Origin: an uncultured Bacilli bacterium
GTDB lineage: Bacteria; Bacillota_I; Bacilli_A; RF39; UBA660
Assembly: GCA_947589435.1 (NCBI GenBank)
Contig: CANQBI010000013.1
Location: 1-40,967 of the forward strand
Length of the DNA stretch: 40,967 bases
Direction of reading: 5' to 3'
Shown here: piece after piece, positions 8,189 through 40,804 of the stretch
Numbering within the stretch: the first letter of the stretch is position 1
How the letters are laid out: every line of letters begins with the position of its first letter
Notes under the pieces: generated by a model
Told to the model about the DNA's origin: nothing
The model's input: only the letters and a program-made list of their open reading frames with translations
The model's database searches: none
Position numbers and translations under genes: made by a program

Positions 8189-9412
8189 TTATGAACCACT
8201 CAAACTTGTGATGATGTATGGACTAGATTCTGTCCCTGTTCCTATTATGCTTACTTCGGATTCAAGATAGAAGACTGGGCGAACCGCAATCCTACTGTCC
8301 ACCCAAGTGTAGTTCATGGAGCCGTTCGAATGCGTAAACCACGCCTCGTAATGGCTGCTACCATAGCCATACCTAGTCATTGTCCATTCGTCAGTACTTC
8401 CATATGTCCCTGTTTTTCCGCTCATTGTGTTGGTAATATGAAGCCAACTATTAGTGTTTCTTGCGTATGTCCATGAATTATAATAATCACTGGCATACAT
8501 TAAACCTATTGGGTATTTTGAACTCGTTCTTGTTTTTGCCTCTGCTCCACTACTTGCTGCGTTCGTTCTATTTCCTTTCCACCAATATACTTCTTTTATT
8601 AAGTCTTTTACCCCTAGTCCATTGTAGAAACCACTTTCATTTATTGATACTCTTACTGTATTACTTGCATTATCCCAATCTATATTTGATTCATAATTTG
8701 TTGACCATGCTTGGCTTGTACTTGAAGGAATTACTTTTATTACCTTTAACATGCCTTTTTCTAATCCTAATGAATTACTTTCATTGGCTTCTGTTCCGTC
8801 GGTTACTCCGATTATACGATATAAATATTTATTGTTTTCAGCACTTCCACATGTATCTGGGTTAAGTGGCCCTCCTATACATACGAAGTTATTTGTTACT
8901 TGGTCTTTGGTCCCTTTAAATCTATATAATCCTTCTACTGCTACTCTACTTCCTTGTTTTCCTTGTCCTATTGTTGTACCACTACCATAATATTCTCCAC
9001 CTTGAGCATCTAATGTTTCTAATGCATGTCTTCCTTTACCAAAGTATAAGGTACAATATATGGTTTGTTTTGTTTTAATGTGTGCTGTATATGTTGTTTC
9101 ATCAAATGACAAAATATTTTTACTTGGCACACTTACTCCTTCACTATCAGTACATTCTGCCCCTGCATATAAGTATACATTTTTATCTGGCCATGTATTT
9201 CTGTCTTCTGCTTCATGCCATCCAAAATCATTTTCTCCTTCATTTTGAATCATTATAGCTAGTGATTTGTCTTTTTCTTTAAATACATCTATTGTTTTAA
9301 TGTCCTCTAAAACTTTAGAATTTTTTGAATTATTAAAATAAACATAAAATTCAAATATTACACTTATTGTTAAAACTACTACTAAAACATTTAATATTAT
9401 TCGCTTTTTCAT
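8189..9412 (-). CDS. Membrane-anchored surface protein with DGR-type variable C-terminal domain
   Basis: 407 aa. Residues about 4-27 are a hydrophobic signal/anchor; the rest is extracellular, Ser/Thr/Tyr/Asn/Gly rich with a few Cys. The C-terminal domain has YPIGLMYASDYYNSW, then RYGYGSSHYEAWFTHSNGS, then SRIAVRPVFYLESEV. This layout (W/G core ending in AVRPVFYL) is that of variable domains served by diversity-generating retroelements, and it aligns with both template repeats near 38.9 and 40.3 kb. Start ATG 9412 follows AAGGAG. It is 13 nt downstream of the G-tract gene, so one operon is likely. The ligand is unknown. Confidence 0.75.
   Translation of the reverse strand: MKKRIILNVLVVVLTISVIFEFYVYFNNSKNSKVLEDIKTIDVFKEKDKSLAIMIQNEGENDFGWHEAEDRNTWPDKNVYLYAGAECTDSEGVSVPSKNILSFDETTYTAHIKTKQTIYCTLYFGKGRHALETLDAQGGEYYGSGTTIGQGKQGSRVAVEGLYRFKGTKDQVTNNFVCIGGPLNPDTCGSAENNKYLYRIIGVTDGTEANESNSLGLEKGMLKVIKVIPSSTSQAWSTNYESNIDWDNASNTVRVSINESGFYNGLGVKDLIKEVYWWKGNRTNAASSGAEAKTRTSSKYPIGLMYASDYYNSWTYARNTNSWLHITNTMSGKTGTYGSTDEWTMTRYGYGSSHYEAWFTHSNGSMNYTWVDSRIAVRPVFYLESEVSIIGTGTESSPYIITSLSGS
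8263..8370 (-). other. Variable-region-like segment of the surface protein
   Basis: 36 codons from AGG TAT GGC to TTC TAT. Same length as template TR2 after removing one base, and its 3' end (GCGGTTCGCCCAG then CTTCTAT) is almost identical to TR1. By my hand alignment to TR2, about 16 differences fall on template adenines and about 15 on other bases. The segment is therefore related to, but not directly copied from, either template in this window. Confidence 0.55.
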
Positions 9413-9425
9413 TATCTTTCACTCC

Positions 9426-10236
9426 TTACTTAAAATATACATAACAGGTATTTGGTCCATCTGTATCTATTGTAAATCCATCTGTATCATTGTAATCTAT
9501 GTTAGTTGCTACTTTATCATTGGAACATTTATATCCCACATATGTCTTACCTGTTGGTATGGTACTAGACATTTTATATTTATTTCCTTCATAATCTCTA
9601 TCGCCACTTGAATCTTGAATATAAGCATACACTATTACATCGGATATCTTATCTCTATCATAATAAAGTCTACATACTATTTGATTTGGTTTAGTTTCGG
9701 ATACTGTTATGTCTACTGTACCATCATCTTCTATTTTATAATCTTCAGTATATGTTGTTCCTTCTTCGTTATCTTTGGGATAACAATTAGATATATCTTG
9801 ATTTAATTTATATCCATTGTCAGGAGTATATTTAACTTCTATATATTTCTTTGGATTATCAGGCATTTGGATATACCATATAACATTGACATCTGTACTT
9901 TTACCACTTATTGGTCCATCTTTTACTGTTTCACCTTCACCAGCAAAGTTTCCCACTTTAGATGTAAATATTGGAACAGGTTCCATTTCATAATTATAAT
10001 AAGCATGAGTTTGATTTAAATATAATAAAGCCACTAAAAAAACTACACATATAACTATGTATATTATTTTAAAATTTAATTTTTCTTTTATATTATCAAG
10101 TTTATCTTTAAAGTTATTTGGTATGAATGCTAAAGATATTAGGGTATTACAATAACCCCCCCCCGATTTGGGTATTTAGAACTACTAATGTAATTATTGC
10201 TACATATAATACTATTCTTTTAATTTCTTTCTTCAT
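9426..10236 (-). CDS. Surface protein, out of frame at a G9 tract (candidate phase-variable gene)
   Basis: As sequenced, translation from the ATG at 10236 (ribosome binding site AGAGG, 7 nt away) runs 29 codons and stops just after a run of nine G (10156-10164). Removing one G joins this start without a stop to the downstream frame, giving 269 aa: a first hydrophobic segment, a short charged linker, a second membrane segment ending QTHAYYNYE, then an Asp/Tyr-rich extracellular part with Cys in CYPKD, VCRLYY, GYKCSND and NTCYVYF. The downstream frame alone has only a GTG inside the membrane segment (10034). It heads the operon with the surface protein at 8189-9412. No family recognised. Confidence 0.6.
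10156..10164 (-). repeat. Homopolymeric G9 tract inside the coding region
   Basis: Nine G on the minus strand in a very AT-rich gene. G8 or G11 would open the frame; G9 and G10 both lead to a stop within a few codons. Such tracts are classic slipped-strand switching sites. Confidence 0.85.
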
Positions 10237-10344
10237 ACACATACCTCTTTTATATTATTAATATATTTATTTAATTTTATACTAATGTTGTATATACCGA
10301 ATATTAATTACAAAATAAAAAATATTCTTCTACCTTACATTTAA

Positions 10345-10373
10345 ATAATATCTCAAATAATGCCATAAGTCAA
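10345..10373 (-). promoter_or_regulatory. Promoter of the surface-protein operon
   Basis: Minus strand: -35 TTGACT (10368-10373), 17-bp spacer, -10 TATTAT (10345-10350). It leaves a leader of about 100 nt before the ATG at 10236. Confidence 0.6.
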
Positions 10374-10463: not shown

Positions 10464-10488
10464 AAATAAAAAGTCCCATTAAGGAACT
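10464..10488 (-). terminator. Terminator of structured RNA copy A
   Basis: Minus strand: AGTTCC-TTAAT-GGGACT stem-loop (10472-10488) with one G-U pair, followed by TTTTTATTT. Confidence 0.75.
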
Positions 10489-10600
10489 AATTATTTGTGC
10501 TCGGGTTGTTTGCAGTTGACAACCGGCAACGCTCGCTAGAGATTATTGTCCGTAGCAGGGAATGCACCGAGCAGCCTAGTGCACACAACTTAACTTGTCA
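10464..10600 (-). ncRNA. Structured RNA copy A, downstream of the 210-aa gene
   Basis: About 135 nt with its own promoter and a terminator. On the minus strand it folds into hairpin P1 (GTGCA/TGCAC, 10579-10583 with 10563-10567) whose loop pairs with a distal segment (TGCTCGG 10498-10504 with CCGAGCA 10567-10573), a pseudoknot; an internal stem P3 (GCTA/TAGC, 10535-10538 with 10553-10556); and a stem GGTTGT/ACAACC (10504-10509 with 10519-10524). Copy B has the same helices made of different bases, which is strong evidence for RNA structure. The motif GTTGACAACCGGCAAC (+ strand) is identical in both copies. No known RNA family recognised. Confidence 0.7.
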
Positions 10601-10605
10601 ATTAT

Positions 10606-10634
10606 ATTGTATCATTTTTAGGTTTAATTGTAAA
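10606..10634 (-). promoter_or_regulatory. Promoter of structured RNA copy A
   Basis: Minus strand: -35 TTTACA (10629-10634), 17-bp spacer, extended -10 TGATACAAT (hexamer 10606-10611). It overlaps the end of the 210-aa gene. The same arrangement precedes copy B. Confidence 0.75.
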
Positions 10635-11256
10635 GTGTTTTTTTCTCACATTGCTTTATTAATTTTACTTTTTTAATTTTAATTTGCTTTAATCCTCCAA
10701 TTAAAAGGTTATTATCTTCGACAATAAATGTTTCAATTATATAATTATTTTTATATAATTCTTTAATTGAAAGCATGGGATAAACTAAATGGTTAATATC
10801 ATATACTTCTTTATATAAAACATAATTGCCTTTTAGTAGTGTGCTCCTCCATGTCTTATATTTATCCAATACTTTTAAATAACTTCTCTTTTCAATAGTA
10901 TTAAAAAACATAATTAAATATGATATTCTTTTCTCTACTTCCTTAAAACTAATTTGACAATATGCATTTTGTTTAATTTCACTTCGAATTGATTCCCAAG
11001 TAATTTTACCATTTAAAATATTATTTAATCCTTTATATCCTCGATAATTGATTTTACTATTACTATTCTTATAAACATGTTGAAGTCCTAATAAATGAGG
11101 TAAAGCTTTTTTATAAATTTTAACTTTAATAACTTTATCTTCAGTTTCAATTTCTAAAGTATACCCATCATATTTTTCAAAATATAAAGCAATATCTTTT
11201 AATGAATAATCCTTCCAATTTATTTTTTTAAAAACTGTATCTAATACTTTTTTCAT
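10624..11256 (-). CDS. Hypothetical protein, possible PBECR4-like nuclease/toxin
   Basis: 210 aa, soluble, very Lys-rich. Seen: YTLEIETEDKVIKVKIYKKA (residues about 32-51), HLLGLQHVYKNS near 54, INYRGYKGLNNILNGKITW near 69, a central helical stretch QISFKEVEKRISYLIMFFN, and near the end YIIETFIVEDNNLLIGGLKQ. The HLLGL segment plus the late strand pair reminds me of the PBECR4 group of Barnase/EndoU/ColicinE5/RelE-like nucleases found in phages and mobile elements; this is a weak match by eye. The gene stands alone between two copies of a structured RNA, and its ribosome binding site is folded into a hairpin, both of which suggest tight control, as for a toxin. Confidence 0.5.
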   Translation of the reverse strand: MKKVLDTVFKKINWKDYSLKDIALYFEKYDGYTLEIETEDKVIKVKIYKKALPHLLGLQHVYKNSNSKINYRGYKGLNNILNGKITWESIRSEIKQNAYCQISFKEVEKRISYLIMFFNTIEKRSYLKVLDKYKTWRSTLLKGNYVLYKEVYDINHLVYPMLSIKELYKNNYIIETFIVEDNNLLIGGLKQIKIKKVKLIKQCEKKTLYN

Positions 11257-11374: not shown

Positions 11375-11486
11375 AATAATTTTGTGTCTGGATTGTTAGT
11401 AGTTGACAACCGGCAACAGCGTGCCAGATATTATTGTCCGCGGCACGGAATATACTAGACACCAAGTATATCAGCATCACCTGTCA
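11375..11486 (-). ncRNA. Structured RNA copy B, upstream of the 210-aa gene
   Basis: Homologue of copy A on the same strand. Helices: P1 ATATAC/GTATAT (11450-11455 with 11466-11471), pseudoknot GTGTCT/AGACAC (11384-11389 with 11457-11462), P3 CGTGCC/GGCACG (11420-11425 with 11442-11447), and GATTGT/ACAACC (11391-11396 with 11406-11411). All keep pairing although most bases differ from copy A. No terminator is evident after it, so it may read on for about 120 nt as the leader of the 210-aa gene. A further long-range pair ACAAAATT/AATTTTGT lies between 11348 and 11386. Confidence 0.65.
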
Positions 11487-11491
11487 ATTTA

Positions 11492-11520
11492 ATTGTATCA
11501 TTATTGGGTGATAAAGTAAA
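11492..11520 (-). promoter_or_regulatory. Promoter of structured RNA copy B
   Basis: Minus strand: -35 TTTACT (11515-11520), 17-bp spacer, extended -10 TGATACAAT (hexamer 11492-11497). It starts just after the histidine kinase stop codon. Confidence 0.7.
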
Positions 11521-36428: not shown

Positions 36429-36716
36429 TTAATTTATTAAATCTTTCCAAGAATTAATTAAATTGGTTAATCTAAATCTTAAATAATAAATATTATACAT
36501 ATTATTTTCATATTCCTGATGGTCTATTATCTCCATATTTCTTACTATAATATAATTTATTTTTAAGCGTTCTAAATCTTTTAATTTGCGAAATTTTAAA
36601 AATTTTAATAATTCTTTATCTTCTTTATAACCAATATACTTATTATCTTTTTGAAATAATATAATAGTCTTGGGATAAGTTCTTTTAATAAAAACATATC
36701 TATTTTTGTAAGCCAT
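36429..36716 (-). CDS. Small protein of the DGR operon, perhaps MutS-domain-I-like
   Basis: 95 aa, overlapping the reverse transcriptase gene by 17 nt, so it is part of the operon. The start RYVFIKRTYPKTIILFQKDN and then KINYIIVRNMEIIDHQEYEN resemble the opening strands of MutS domain I (KEKYPDxxLLFxxGDFYE), but the metal and mismatch residues are missing. The assignment is weak; a role in the retroelement is inferred from position only. Confidence 0.45.
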   Translation of the reverse strand: MAYKNRYVFIKRTYPKTIILFQKDNKYIGYKEDKELLKFLKFRKLKDLERLKINYIIVRNMEIIDHQEYENNMYNIYYLRFRLTNLINSWKDLIN

Positions 36717-37824
36717 GCACTCTATTAAACCAATATTTATTGATTGCCCTTCTAACTTTCATTTGACTTCCATATTTTCTGTTATACCAATAACTCATTA
36801 TCGAACAAAAAGCTTCATTAAAAGAAATAAAACCATGTTCATACATATAATAAGTTCTTTTAACTCTTTTTTTTGTTTTTTCATAGGCTTCTCTTCTTAA
36901 TCTCACAATTGTCTTCTTACCTACAACTTTGTAATTGTATCCTAGAAAAACAAACCCTTCATTATTTTTTACTATTTTGGTCTTTTTACTATTTAATTTT
37001 AATTTATACTTAGTATTTAAAATAGTTTCAATTTCTTTTAAAGCATTTTCTAAGACTTTCTTATCATGATGAATTAAAACAAAATCATCCATATAACGCA
37101 CATAATATTTAATATGTAAATTATGGACAATATAATGGTCTAATTCATATAAATAAAAAATAGATAAAAATTGACTAGTCATATTTCCAATAGGTAACCC
37201 TTTACCGTATTCATAATAAGGTAGACTATCAATTTCTTTTTTAAATTGTGGGTGTTTCTTCGTATAATTTGTTTTAATCGTTTTAATAATTTTATTTATA
37301 TATTCTTCATTGGTACTATCAATAATTATTTTTAAAAAGTCATATTCTTCTTTTGATAACTTATCTTTAACAAGACTCATTAAAACTTCATGATCTATAG
37401 AATAAAAATACTTGCTTATGTCTAGTTTTAAAATATAAAAAGTTTCATATTTTTTATTTTTCTCTAAAAATTTTTTAACCATTTTAATTCCATAATCCGT
37501 ACCCATACCTTTACGGGTAGCGATATTCCGGTCATCTAAATATTTAGAAAGTTTTATTTCTAAAACGTATCTCGCAATAAAATGATTAATAATTTTATCC
37601 GTGATACTTAAAGCCATCACAATCCGATGCTTAGGCTCTTTAATCAAAAAAATATTATATTTTCCCCCATCATACTCCCCTGTTTTAAGGACATTAATTA
37701 TATGATTTATATTTTGAAATTTATTTTTCTCAAACATATATACTTTATGTTTGTTTTTAACATTTTTGGATATTTCTTTTTCATATAAATTTAAAATGGT
37801 ATCTAAATTACAATGTTCCTTCAT
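36700..37824 (-). CDS. Reverse transcriptase of a diversity-generating retroelement
   Basis: 374 aa, DGR-RT length. Motif order: RKGMGTDYGIKMVKKFL (residues 104-120), catalytic Asp in LKLDISKYFYSIDHEV (132-147), GKGLPIGNMTSQFLSIFYLY (207-226), which is the DGR-type [LIV]GNxxSQ motif, and YYVRYMDDFVLI (240-251) with the YMDD box, then LNSKKTKIV and FLGYNY. These features, with no maturase or endonuclease domain, separate DGR enzymes from group II intron and retron enzymes. It copies a template RNA with errors at adenines. Overlaps Avd by 17 nt. Confidence 0.88.
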   Translation of the reverse strand: MKEHCNLDTILNLYEKEISKNVKNKHKVYMFEKNKFQNINHIINVLKTGEYDGGKYNIFLIKEPKHRIVMALSITDKIINHFIARYVLEIKLSKYLDDRNIATRKGMGTDYGIKMVKKFLEKNKKYETFYILKLDISKYFYSIDHEVLMSLVKDKLSKEEYDFLKIIIDSTNEEYINKIIKTIKTNYTKKHPQFKKEIDSLPYYEYGKGLPIGNMTSQFLSIFYLYELDHYIVHNLHIKYYVRYMDDFVLIHHDKKVLENALKEIETILNTKYKLKLNSKKTKIVKNNEGFVFLGYNYKVVGKKTIVRLRREAYEKTKKRVKRTYYMYEHGFISFNEAFCSIMSYWYNRKYGSQMKVRRAINKYWFNRVHGLQK

Positions 37825-38188
37825 TACTTTTACTTTCTTGGATACTATATTTTATCCACCTGTAAACCATTTTGGAAATAGCTTCAAGTTCATTTGATTT
37901 ATTTAAACATTGTTTTTCATTAATATATTTTTTCTTATAAGCTCTTTCTAAATAAAAATCTAACATATTAATTTTGGCTAATATTTCTATTTGCAAATGA
38001 TTTTTTTCTTTAATATCTTCTATTTCATTAGCAATAAAAACTAATTCTAAAACTTTTAAAGCATCTTTATAAATCATATCTTTAGTCAAAAATTCTTTTC
38101 TGGGAAAATTAACTAACATTGTCTCTAATCCTAGAATGAATTTTTTCATGTTTTTAATTATTAAAAATTTTTCAGTTCGATATTGCAT
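37808..38188 (-). CDS. avd: Avd-like accessory protein (four-helix bundle)
   Basis: 126 aa from the ATG at 38188. All-helical, basic, with the pattern of Avd and 23S-rRNA-IVP proteins: LETMLVNFPRKEFLTKDMIY (residues about 22-42), KVLELVFIANEIEDIKEKNH, IEILAKINMLDFYLERAYKK, INEKQCLNKSNELEAISKMV and WIKYS at the end. Avd forms a pentamer that binds the reverse transcriptase and template RNA and is needed for mutagenic copying. It lies directly before the RT gene and overlaps both neighbours. Confidence 0.82.
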   Translation of the reverse strand: MQYRTEKFLIIKNMKKFILGLETMLVNFPRKEFLTKDMIYKDALKVLELVFIANEIEDIKEKNHLQIEILAKINMLDFYLERAYKKKYINEKQCLNKSNELEAISKMVYRWIKYSIQESKSNEGTL

Positions 38189-38552
38189 CTTCAATTACTT
38201 CAAGTATATGGTCTAGTTCTTTAGCATTTAATTTGCGAATTGCCGTTTCAATTTTTTGAAACCGCTCTTCAATAGATAATTCGCTAATTCCTTTTTTAAG
38301 AATATTTTTGTAATTATTAATTTTTTTAAAATTTTTTTCATCTTTTTTCTCGTTTTTTTCATAAACTACATAAGATATTTCATTGTCTAGTAAAGCATTT
38401 ATAACTTTGTTATAGGCAGTTTCGGGAAACCCTACTCCCCCTTTTTCCGCCACAATTTTATAACCAGTAATATAATGAAGCACTATCGCATCATCTCCAA
38501 AGACATTATAAAATTTGCCGGAACGTCTTAGTTCAACTACGTCGTTTTTAAT
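38172..38552 (-). CDS. MutS-domain-I-like DGR accessory protein, probable ATT start
   Basis: 126 aa. LRRSGKFYNVFGDDAIVLHY near residue 8, then GYKIVAEKGGVGFPETAYNK and LLDNEISYVVYEKNEK give the fold pattern of MutS domain I (GDFYExFGxDA ... GVPxxAxxxxxxxLxxxGxxVAICEQ). A Lys-rich linker and a helical C-terminal part (LSIEERFQKIETAIRKLNA) follow. I extend it past the GTG at 38483, because that start would cut the domain; the only start codon upstream is ATT at 38552, with AGGAG 10 nt before. Small MutS-like (MSL) proteins are known DGR partners. Confidence 0.65.
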   Translation of the reverse strand: MKNDVVELRRSGKFYNVFGDDAIVLHYITGYKIVAEKGGVGFPETAYNKVINALLDNEISYVVYEKNEKKDEKNFKKINNYKNILKKGISELSIEERFQKIETAIRKLNAKELDHILEVIEDAISN

Positions 38553-38798: not shown

Positions 38799-38971
38799 CC
38801 ATAGCCATATAATCACTCAAGTTATAGAAGGCTGGGCGAACCGCATTCGTATTGTTCACATTGCCATTATTCCAGTCCAAGGAGCCGCTCGTATTCACAT
38901 TCCACGCAATGTAATTGCCCCAGTCGCTGTTGTAGCCATACCTAACACTTATATCAAGATTACCTATCTAT

Positions 38972-39045: not shown

Positions 39046-39967
39046 TTATTTTAATTTTTCAATATCTTCAGTATTTAAATTAGTAATCTCAGATATTTCT
39101 TTAATGGAGTATCCTTTTTCTAACATATTCTTGGCAATGTCTTTTTTATTTTCTTCGATACCTTGAATTTTTCCCTCTTCAATGCCTTTAACTATACCTT
39201 CCTCGATGCCTTCCTTTTTGGCTTCATTAACTCGCATTTGTTCTCTTATCTTAGCCTCTTCTTCTCTACTTATCTCTCTTCTGAATACAAAATCATCATT
39301 TAACTTTTCCACTTCTTCTTCCACTCCCTTTATTAGTTTATCTACCTTTGCTAACTTCCTTAACTCCTCTTTATTAGCATCTAACATTACTAAATAAATG
39401 TGAGTCTTATCTCCTTTTATGTTCTTATCATACCAAAGATGCTTATACTTTGCAATATTAACCGTTATGATTTTAAAACTATTGCTATATCTTACTCCTT
39501 TAGCATCTTGAACATAAAATGTTTTCTTCTCTTCTTCCTTTTTACTTTCATTAAAATTAATATCAATATGTAAGACTTCTAATTTTTCATCAATATCTTC
39601 GATATATTCTCCCCTTAACTTCTTTTGAGAGTATAGTGATGTATAATATACTAAATTTCTTTCTTTGGTTGATTTATCAAAGTTAGTATTTAATTCCACA
39701 TTTATTAATTTATTATCTTTAGTACTTACTAATATATCTAAGATATTTACTTTACTTTTGACATTCTTAATAGGTAAATTCTGTAGGGACAAAACTAATT
39801 ATCTTTACTTCTTCCTCTAAAATATCTGTTAATACTTTTTCTAAAACTTCTGGATTAACATCTATTACCTTTTTAAATACTCTATCATATTTTAAATGAT
39901 AAAATTTATTTCCTTCATTTTCCCCATTTTGTTCTTCTAATTCATTTTCTATTTTTTCTGCTAGCAT
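39046..39967 (-). pseudogene. Rpn-family (PD-(D/E)XK nuclease/transposase) gene, frameshifted
   Basis: Starts at ATG 39967 (AAAGGAGGAG upstream). The first frame, KYDRVFKKVIDVNPEVLEKV then IISFVPTEF, shifts at a TTT run near 39779-39782; the second continues LPIKNVKSKVNILDILVSTK, LINVELNTNFDKS, KKLRGEYIED, KTHIYLVMLDAN and a Glu/Gly coiled repeat (EEGIVKGIEEGKIQGIEE). The D-x-N ... VEL-x-T core matches the PD-(D/E)XK family of Rpn recombination-promoting nucleases. One T less would give about 306 aa. Mutation or sequencing error. Confidence 0.75.
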
Positions 39968-40251: not shown

Positions 40252-40414
40252 TCTTAACCATATAATCACTCAAGTTATAGAAGGCTTTGGCGAACCGCAT
40301 TCGTATTGTTCACATTCCAGTTGTTCAAGTTGCCGTCCGAATTCACATTCCACGCATTGTAATCGCCATAATTGTTGCCATACCTATCATAATTATCAAG
40401 ATTACCTATTTATA

Positions 40415-40423: not shown

Positions 40424-40804
40424 TTATTTTATTTTCTTTTTTATTTCATTTAACTCTTTTAAAGAAATATTAGTATATTTTCTTATTTCTTTATTAGATA
40501 ATCCACTTTGAAGCATATTCTTTACAACTGATACAAGTTCTTCTTTCTTTCCTTCTTTTTTTCCTTCTATCCTTCCAGTTTCTTTGCCATCAGAATAAAT
40601 AAACTTCTTTTCAAGTTCTATTTCATCTTCTCTTGTTCTATTAATAGTCAATGTTCCATCTTCATTAAATATATACACTTGATTTCTAACCTCCCTTACT
40701 AATTTATCTTTCTTACTTAATTTATCTAATTCTTTATCATTACATCCTAACATAGCCAAATATATATGTTCTTTTTCCCCTTTCAAATTCTTTGTTAAAG
40801 TCAA
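40424..40804 (-). pseudogene. Truncated C-terminal part of an Rpn-family gene
   Basis: About 126 aa: KGEKEHIYLAMLGCNDKELD matches the KGDKTHIYLVMLDANKEELR part of the neighbour, followed by the charged coil (EGKKEGKKEEL) and LSNKEIRKYTNISLKELNEI. The PD-(D/E)XK nuclease core is missing; upstream the frame meets a 98-bp direct repeat. It opens with a TTG only. It is probably a non-functional duplicate of the Rpn gene at 39046-39967. Confidence 0.7.

Follow-up and report, generated by a model that had tools for sequence, protein, structure and literature searches.

Phase variation through G tracts and diversity-generating retroelements (DGRs) with remote targets are both already known. In Neisseria, G tracts lie at coding as well as promoter-spacer positions. 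Campylobacter jejuni NCTC11168 contains 29 polyG/C tracts (PMC4965091). A G-tract switch has also been described for the sortase pili of Bifidobacterium breve (bbr_0113 and bbr_1889), where slippage was measured and the OFF state involves transcription polarity (PMC9187656). DGRs with remote C-type-lectin targets have been reported in cyanobacteria (PMC7517822). DUF6273 proteins, which are C-type-lectin-like and carry the variable region at the C-terminal end, are known as DGR targets from Faecalibacterium prophages (PMC11792537) and as tentaclins (PMC10743442).

The locus considered here belongs to an uncultured Bacilli bacterium and lies in a window of 40,967 nucleotides, by which we mean the whole stretch of DNA that was analysed. 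As in B. breve, the organism is a Gram-positive gut commensal, the switched product appears to be a surface structure and the reference state is OFF. The start codon and a signal-like leader are likewise placed in a short upstream ORF that is followed by a G tract and a downstream ORF without a start, and the ON state is reached by -1+3n. However, B. breve has two such loci, these encode sortase pilins, and no DGR has been reported there. The contingency loci (SSR) of Campylobacter and Neisseria share with our genomes the many tracts of about 8 to 11 G, in coding and promoter positions, but these organisms are proteobacterial pathogens or near relatives, and their tracts mostly serve surface-modifying enzymes and single genes. 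In our uncultured Bacilli genus, by comparison, copies of a single leader module recur across a family of paralogous cassettes. Described remote-target DGRs resemble ours in having a reverse transcriptase, an Avd-like protein, template repeats and dispersed targets, whose A-biased variable regions lie C-terminally in genes that are here of putative DUF6273/CLec type. They differ in that the single 1.44-Mb genome studied here has about 25 variable regions along with 13 copies resembling templates, with many targets behind a putatively phase-variable leader. An open-access literature search found no report that joins slippage switches and DGR targets in one cassette, and the coupling, the scale and the lineage appear to be new.

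Materials and methods

The host genome (G000) comprises 1.44 Mb in 62 contigs at 93% completeness. Its near relatives are uncultured Bacilli bins and separate public assemblies. Genome-wide counts were obtained by pattern searches, and each tract length is that of one assembly consensus.

The G tract and its reading frames

We consider it very probable that the G9 tract acts as a slipped-strand phase-variation switch in the reusable 5' module of a two-gene surface cassette. The features of the locus are the following.

10345 to 10373, minus strand: putative sigma-70 promoter, TTGACT-17-TATTAT, a consensus match only, marking the 5' boundary of the conserved leader block
10285 to 10300, minus strand: TCGGTATNNNCAACA motif of the 5' region
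10243 to 10250, minus strand: Shine-Dalgarno sequence AAAGAGGT, conserved in most of 26 copies
10147 to 10236, minus strand: leader ORF, MKKEIKRIVLYVAIITLVVLNTQI followed by GGGLL and a stop, the OFF product at G9
10156 to 10164, minus strand: G9 tract of the proposed switch, ON at n mod 3 = 2
9426 to 10157, minus strand: P0001, body of the predicted switched membrane/surface protein, with the second hydrophobic segment, a THAYYNYE motif and a mostly beta C-terminal part
8189 to 9412, minus strand: P0002, the cassette's second gene, for a predicted membrane-anchored protein of DUF6273/CLec type, and predicted DGR target

The plus strand reads CCCCCCCCC at 10156 to 10164, which agrees exactly with the position and length that the earlier note had given for the tract. 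On the minus strand, the ATG at 10236, preceded by an AGAGG box a few bases upstream, leads through 24 codons into GGGGGGGGG (10164 to 10156) and then TTA TTG TAA, and the 24-codon leader is thereby terminated after 29 codons. With one G fewer, 245 further codons are open and the product reaches 269 aa, so that the start, the stop and the alternative frame are all as that note had described them. With one G more, a stop follows after 8 codons. The note had also called a long G run exceptional in such AT-rich DNA, and the composition of the window (26.7% GC) bears this out. By run-length count, G9 is its sole G/C run of more than 6, shorter runs become steadily rarer up to a length of 6, after which the next length present is 9, and the Markov expectation for runs of at least 9 is 0.02 to 0.09 per window.

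Ahead of the hydrophobic segment, P0001 lacks a start codon of its own. About 40 matches to its family occur in the host genome, and most tract-less paralogues begin with an ATG (MIKEK...) directly before this segment, whereas the tract copies read NNLKDKL at that point and have no start codon there. In 20 tract copies, no in-frame ATG, GTG or TTG occurs in the first 33 codons 3' of the tract, and later in-frame starts lie inside or adjoin the hydrophobic segment. Because no usable in-frame start follows the tract, P0001 is left without a good start at the wrong tract length; internal reinitiation after the tract was rejected, as there is no suitable start codon.

The hydrophobic segments, together with a low-confidence structure model (pLDDT 61), suggest that P0001 is probably membrane-anchored and surface-exposed. 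This model had no match with E<0.001 in the PDB, and searches with the sequence gave no meaningful match and no Pfam or NCBIfam match. No relative was found among viral contigs. Upstream, the TCGGTATNNNCAACA motif is conserved in most members of the P0001 family, most tract-less paralogues included, at a varying distance from the start codon. The block common to the paralogues extends from about -245 (its start ranges from -245 to -195) to +80/+99 relative to the tract.

The proposed 5' module would thus consist of a promoter, the leader ORF, the G tract and about 30 further codons. At 9 or 10 G, translation would end in the leader and no P0001 would be made; at 8 or 11 G, the leader would be fused in frame to P0001.

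Coding tracts in the host genome and its relatives

The host genome contains 21 tracts of at least 8 G, nearly all of them in two recurrent contexts. In the first (design A), ATC-Gn-TTATTGTAA is embedded in a common leader (MKKENKNLVLYVTILTLVVLISSI and variants), of which the host has 12 copies. A further coding tract, C8:21450, is a G9 behind another leader, and its reading frame requires n mod 3 = 1. These 13 host coding tracts belong to cassettes of the kind described and are OFF wherever the frame is readable in the assembly. One more tract, which occupies the outermost bases of contig C42, has a coding-like context and is not readable further. Four host contigs break off no more than about 10 nt from a G tract (C1:11, C28:17663, C42:1 and the end of C44), a pattern that the repetition of the leader module probably explains.

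When 38 genomes of the genus were searched by pattern, design A turned up in three, with 12 copies in G000, 8 in G026 and 6 in G032. The tract is G9 in 22 of these 26 copies, G10 in two, G8 in one and G11 in one. Since ON requires n mod 3 = 2, two copies are ON, namely G8 on contig C81 of G032 and G11 on contig C68 of G026, and 24 are OFF. Both ON copies are intact, and the G11 copy gives a full read-through protein of 273 aa. The earlier note had taken the tract for a substrate of slipped-strand phase variation, and this reading gains support from the recurrence of leader and tract in three species, at lengths of 8, 9, 10 and 11 and with two natural ON copies; no orthologue arranged as two separate genes was seen.

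The tract is uninterrupted in 26 of 26 copies, though GGG accounts for 14% of the Gly codons in the genes of the window, and it occupies the same codon in all three species. Loci matched by their flanks keep the tract between species, and lengths differ between the G10 copy on host contig C15 and its upstream-flank match on C10 of G026, a G9. Loss of mismatch repair was also considered as a cause of the tracts and rejected: MutS and MutL are both encoded, so the genome is not mismatch-repair-deficient. Directly observed are the reading frames, the 26 copies with their differing lengths, the two ON copies with intact frames and the lack of an alternative start; that tract length changes within the population, and that such changes alter the cell surface, we infer.

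Promoter-spacer tracts

The second context in the host genome (design B) is TTGACA-N10-G8/9-TATAAT, in which the tract fills the promoter spacer. Six tracts of this kind are complete and one is cut at a contig end, and they mostly precede genes for small secreted-looking proteins (MKNLKMFAIAVMAFAVMA...).

Host spacer tracts (contig:position): C2:4525, C4:53580, C5:2, C15:32988, C15:35983, C15:38551, C23:18475

The pattern TTGAC-N-G7+-N-TATA[AC]T is found in 29 of the 38 genus genomes, with up to about 40 occurrences per genome, and the reversed-pattern control gave 0 occurrences in the same 38. Between identical flanks, genome G004 has 13 tracts of G9 (spacer 16) and 12 of G8 (spacer 15), and one architecture in G022 has 16 of G8 and 8 of G9; spacers of the TTGACA-N10 design are 18 to 20 long. 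Such G8/G9 mixtures between identical flanks are as expected of spacer-length phase variation. Counting coding and promoter positions, this genus of uncultured gut Bacilli has up to about 50 G tracts of at least 8 per genome, an abundance that makes the question testable on existing metagenomes.

Alternative explanations

Programmed transcriptional slippage or ribosomal frameshifting would keep G9 fixed and the DNA length constant while yielding the full protein at a low level. A family with 22 of 26 tracts at exactly G9, out of frame, is compatible with such a mechanism, as is the over-representation of OFF copies (2 ON against about 9 expected at one third, p 0.0025 for copies that are not independent), and a mostly-OFF consensus fits a leaky, low-output design. 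The simplest reading of the OFF excess is a modal length of nine in the lineage combined with a common frame. The predominance of G9 could have arisen through shared descent or gene conversion instead of equilibrium slippage, and it could also mean that there is little switching. We nevertheless consider programmed slippage or frameshifting unlikely. Tracts of 8, 10 and 11 exist, in-frame ones included, and after a -1 ribosomal shift at G9 translation would run into the other stop, which leaves read-through to a +1 shift only. Moreover, C8:21450 is also a G9 yet needs the other frame, so a length of nine does not serve one particular shift. The promoter-spacer tracts lie in promoters and are of mixed length, and therefore cannot be frameshift sites.

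It is also conceivable, if very improbable, that the leader-tract copies are decaying frameshifted pseudogenes and that the functional genes are the tract-less paralogues, which are constitutive. Most copies are indeed out of frame in the assembly, but the downstream frames are open over about 245 to 650 codons in complete copies, and species whose closest P0001 relatives are about 86% identical have preserved the leader, the tract and the frame alike. The intact state of all 26 tracts and the two ON copies likewise speak against decay. We give just as little credence to an assembly or sequencing artefact that hides a true length of 8 and a gene that is ON, for although errors are common in homopolymers and the tract coincides with the ends of several contigs (C1, C28, C44), G9 is found at the same place in three separate assemblies, other lengths are called too and the tracts are exceptional whatever the exact n.

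The two-gene cassette and the retroelement

P0002 begins 13 nt after P0001 and has its own Shine-Dalgarno sequence, AAGGAG. The earlier note had placed this downstream gene in the same operon, and the examined P0001 paralogues conform to this, with a P0002 relative behind them or fused to them; many of these relatives terminate in a DGR variable region. A Pfam match to DUF6273 was obtained for 3 of 10 members of the P0002 family (best 2.4e-6), the P0002 of the window having none, and its structure model is of low confidence (pLDDT 57). Among P0002 paralogues, hypervariability and GC richness mark the 100 nt that immediately precede AVRPVFYL. A reverse transcriptase, an Avd-like protein and both template repeats are present in the same window as the switch, at 36.7 to 40.4 kb.

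8278 to 8375, minus strand: DGR variable region at the 3' end of P0002, with A-biased changes relative to the best template
36700 to 37824, minus strand: DGR reverse transcriptase (PF00078, E 3.6e-18; phrog_1423, E 9e-74), with IGNMTSQ and YMDD
37808 to 38194, minus strand: Avd-like accessory protein (phrog_3206, 'Avd protein of DGR', E 4.2e-15)
38835 to 38944, minus strand: template repeat TR2
40289 to 40386, minus strand: template repeat TR1

IGNMTSQ is the form taken here by the DGR-type [IVL]GxxxSQ motif, and the reverse transcriptase is 100% identical in G026 and 97% identical in G032. The match of the Avd-like protein to PF22296 (bAvd) has an E of 2.3e-6, below the Pfam cut-off. Relative to the best template, the variable region of the window is changed at 14 of 30 A sites and at 7 of 65 non-A sites (Fisher p=2e-4). 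For the eight best-matching variable regions, also against the best template, the counts are 137/256 at A (54%) and 47/537 at other positions (9%); for all 26 they are 443/799 (55%) and 398/1796 (22%), some regions, such as that on C2, being too diverged to count as clear targets. Judging by this substitution pattern, the tip of P0002 is probably rewritten by the DGR that the window encodes.

The host genome further contains 13 dispersed noncoding copies that resemble the template repeats.

Template-like copies in the window: 38835 to 38944, 40289 to 40386
Template-like copies elsewhere in G000 (contig:position): C4:53246, C6:3994, C6:27935, C6:29591, C6:31070, C7:21232, C7:45000, C11:30182, C18:19870, C28:17213, C45:9243

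They differ by whole codons, more often at A (106/473) than elsewhere (52/786), as if they were themselves targets of mutagenic homing or formed a template library. The template repeats of the window are adjoined by an ORF of the PD-(D/E)XK transposase family (39046 to 39792) and by a short ORF without a Pfam match (40424 to 40804). A second reverse transcriptase of the host (L222, C17:1610 to 2185), near which no template repeat was seen, looks unrelated to the DGR.

At six fused loci (C3b, C20 and C8 in G000, C11 and C77 in G032, C2 in G026), the tract, the anchor and the variable-region domain belong to a single ORF, and the DGR target, a P0002-type domain, is thus gated directly by the tract. 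P0001 and P0002 are separate genes at the window locus. An effect of the OFF state on P0002 in this unfused operon is possible; despite the polarity described in Bifidobacterium, we do not put it higher because P0002 has its own Shine-Dalgarno sequence and no Rho gene was found in the host genome (93% completeness), and Rho polarity on P0002 was rejected as an explanation on the same ground.

Under slipped-strand switching of the leader, a population would at any time express only small parts of the repertoire, in a changing selection, and the repertoire itself would also be mutated by the retroelement. We see an even chance that this amounts to a two-layer system of antigen variation, in which a many-template retroelement would rewrite the tips of about 25 dispersed cassettes, slippage in the common, recombining leader would select the few of the switched cassettes that are displayed, and cassettes would be gained, lost and swapped behind the leader. 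If both layers are active, this would be a bacterial repertoire system that separates the production of variants from the choice of what is displayed. The bacterium thus seems capable of varying the set of surface proteins that it makes as well as what these bind.

Possible exchange of cassettes, and neighbouring repeats

The orthology of the upstream flanks of the leader and that of the genes downstream are not always concordant. The copy on host contig C15 matches C10 of G026 at 93% up to +243 and not at all beyond, and its cassette matches C8 of G026. Similarly, the host copy C3a matches C11 of G032 at 89% up to +226, where the match ends, and its cassette matches C3 of G026. The entire leader-cassette of host contig C10 (-229 to +2013) is absent from the corresponding site in G026. 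These sequence comparisons point to recombination at the common leader module, and the discordant flanks may also have arisen by rearrangement through another route.

Tandem units of about 115 nt with promoter-like boxes occur at 10480 to 10600 and 11380 to 11500, one of them followed by a terminator-like hairpin. The repeat at 10480 to 10600 has no Rfam match and a fold z of -0.6. Relative to C33 of G032, a gene at 10624 to 11256 with a weak phrog_3446 match is inserted between these units.
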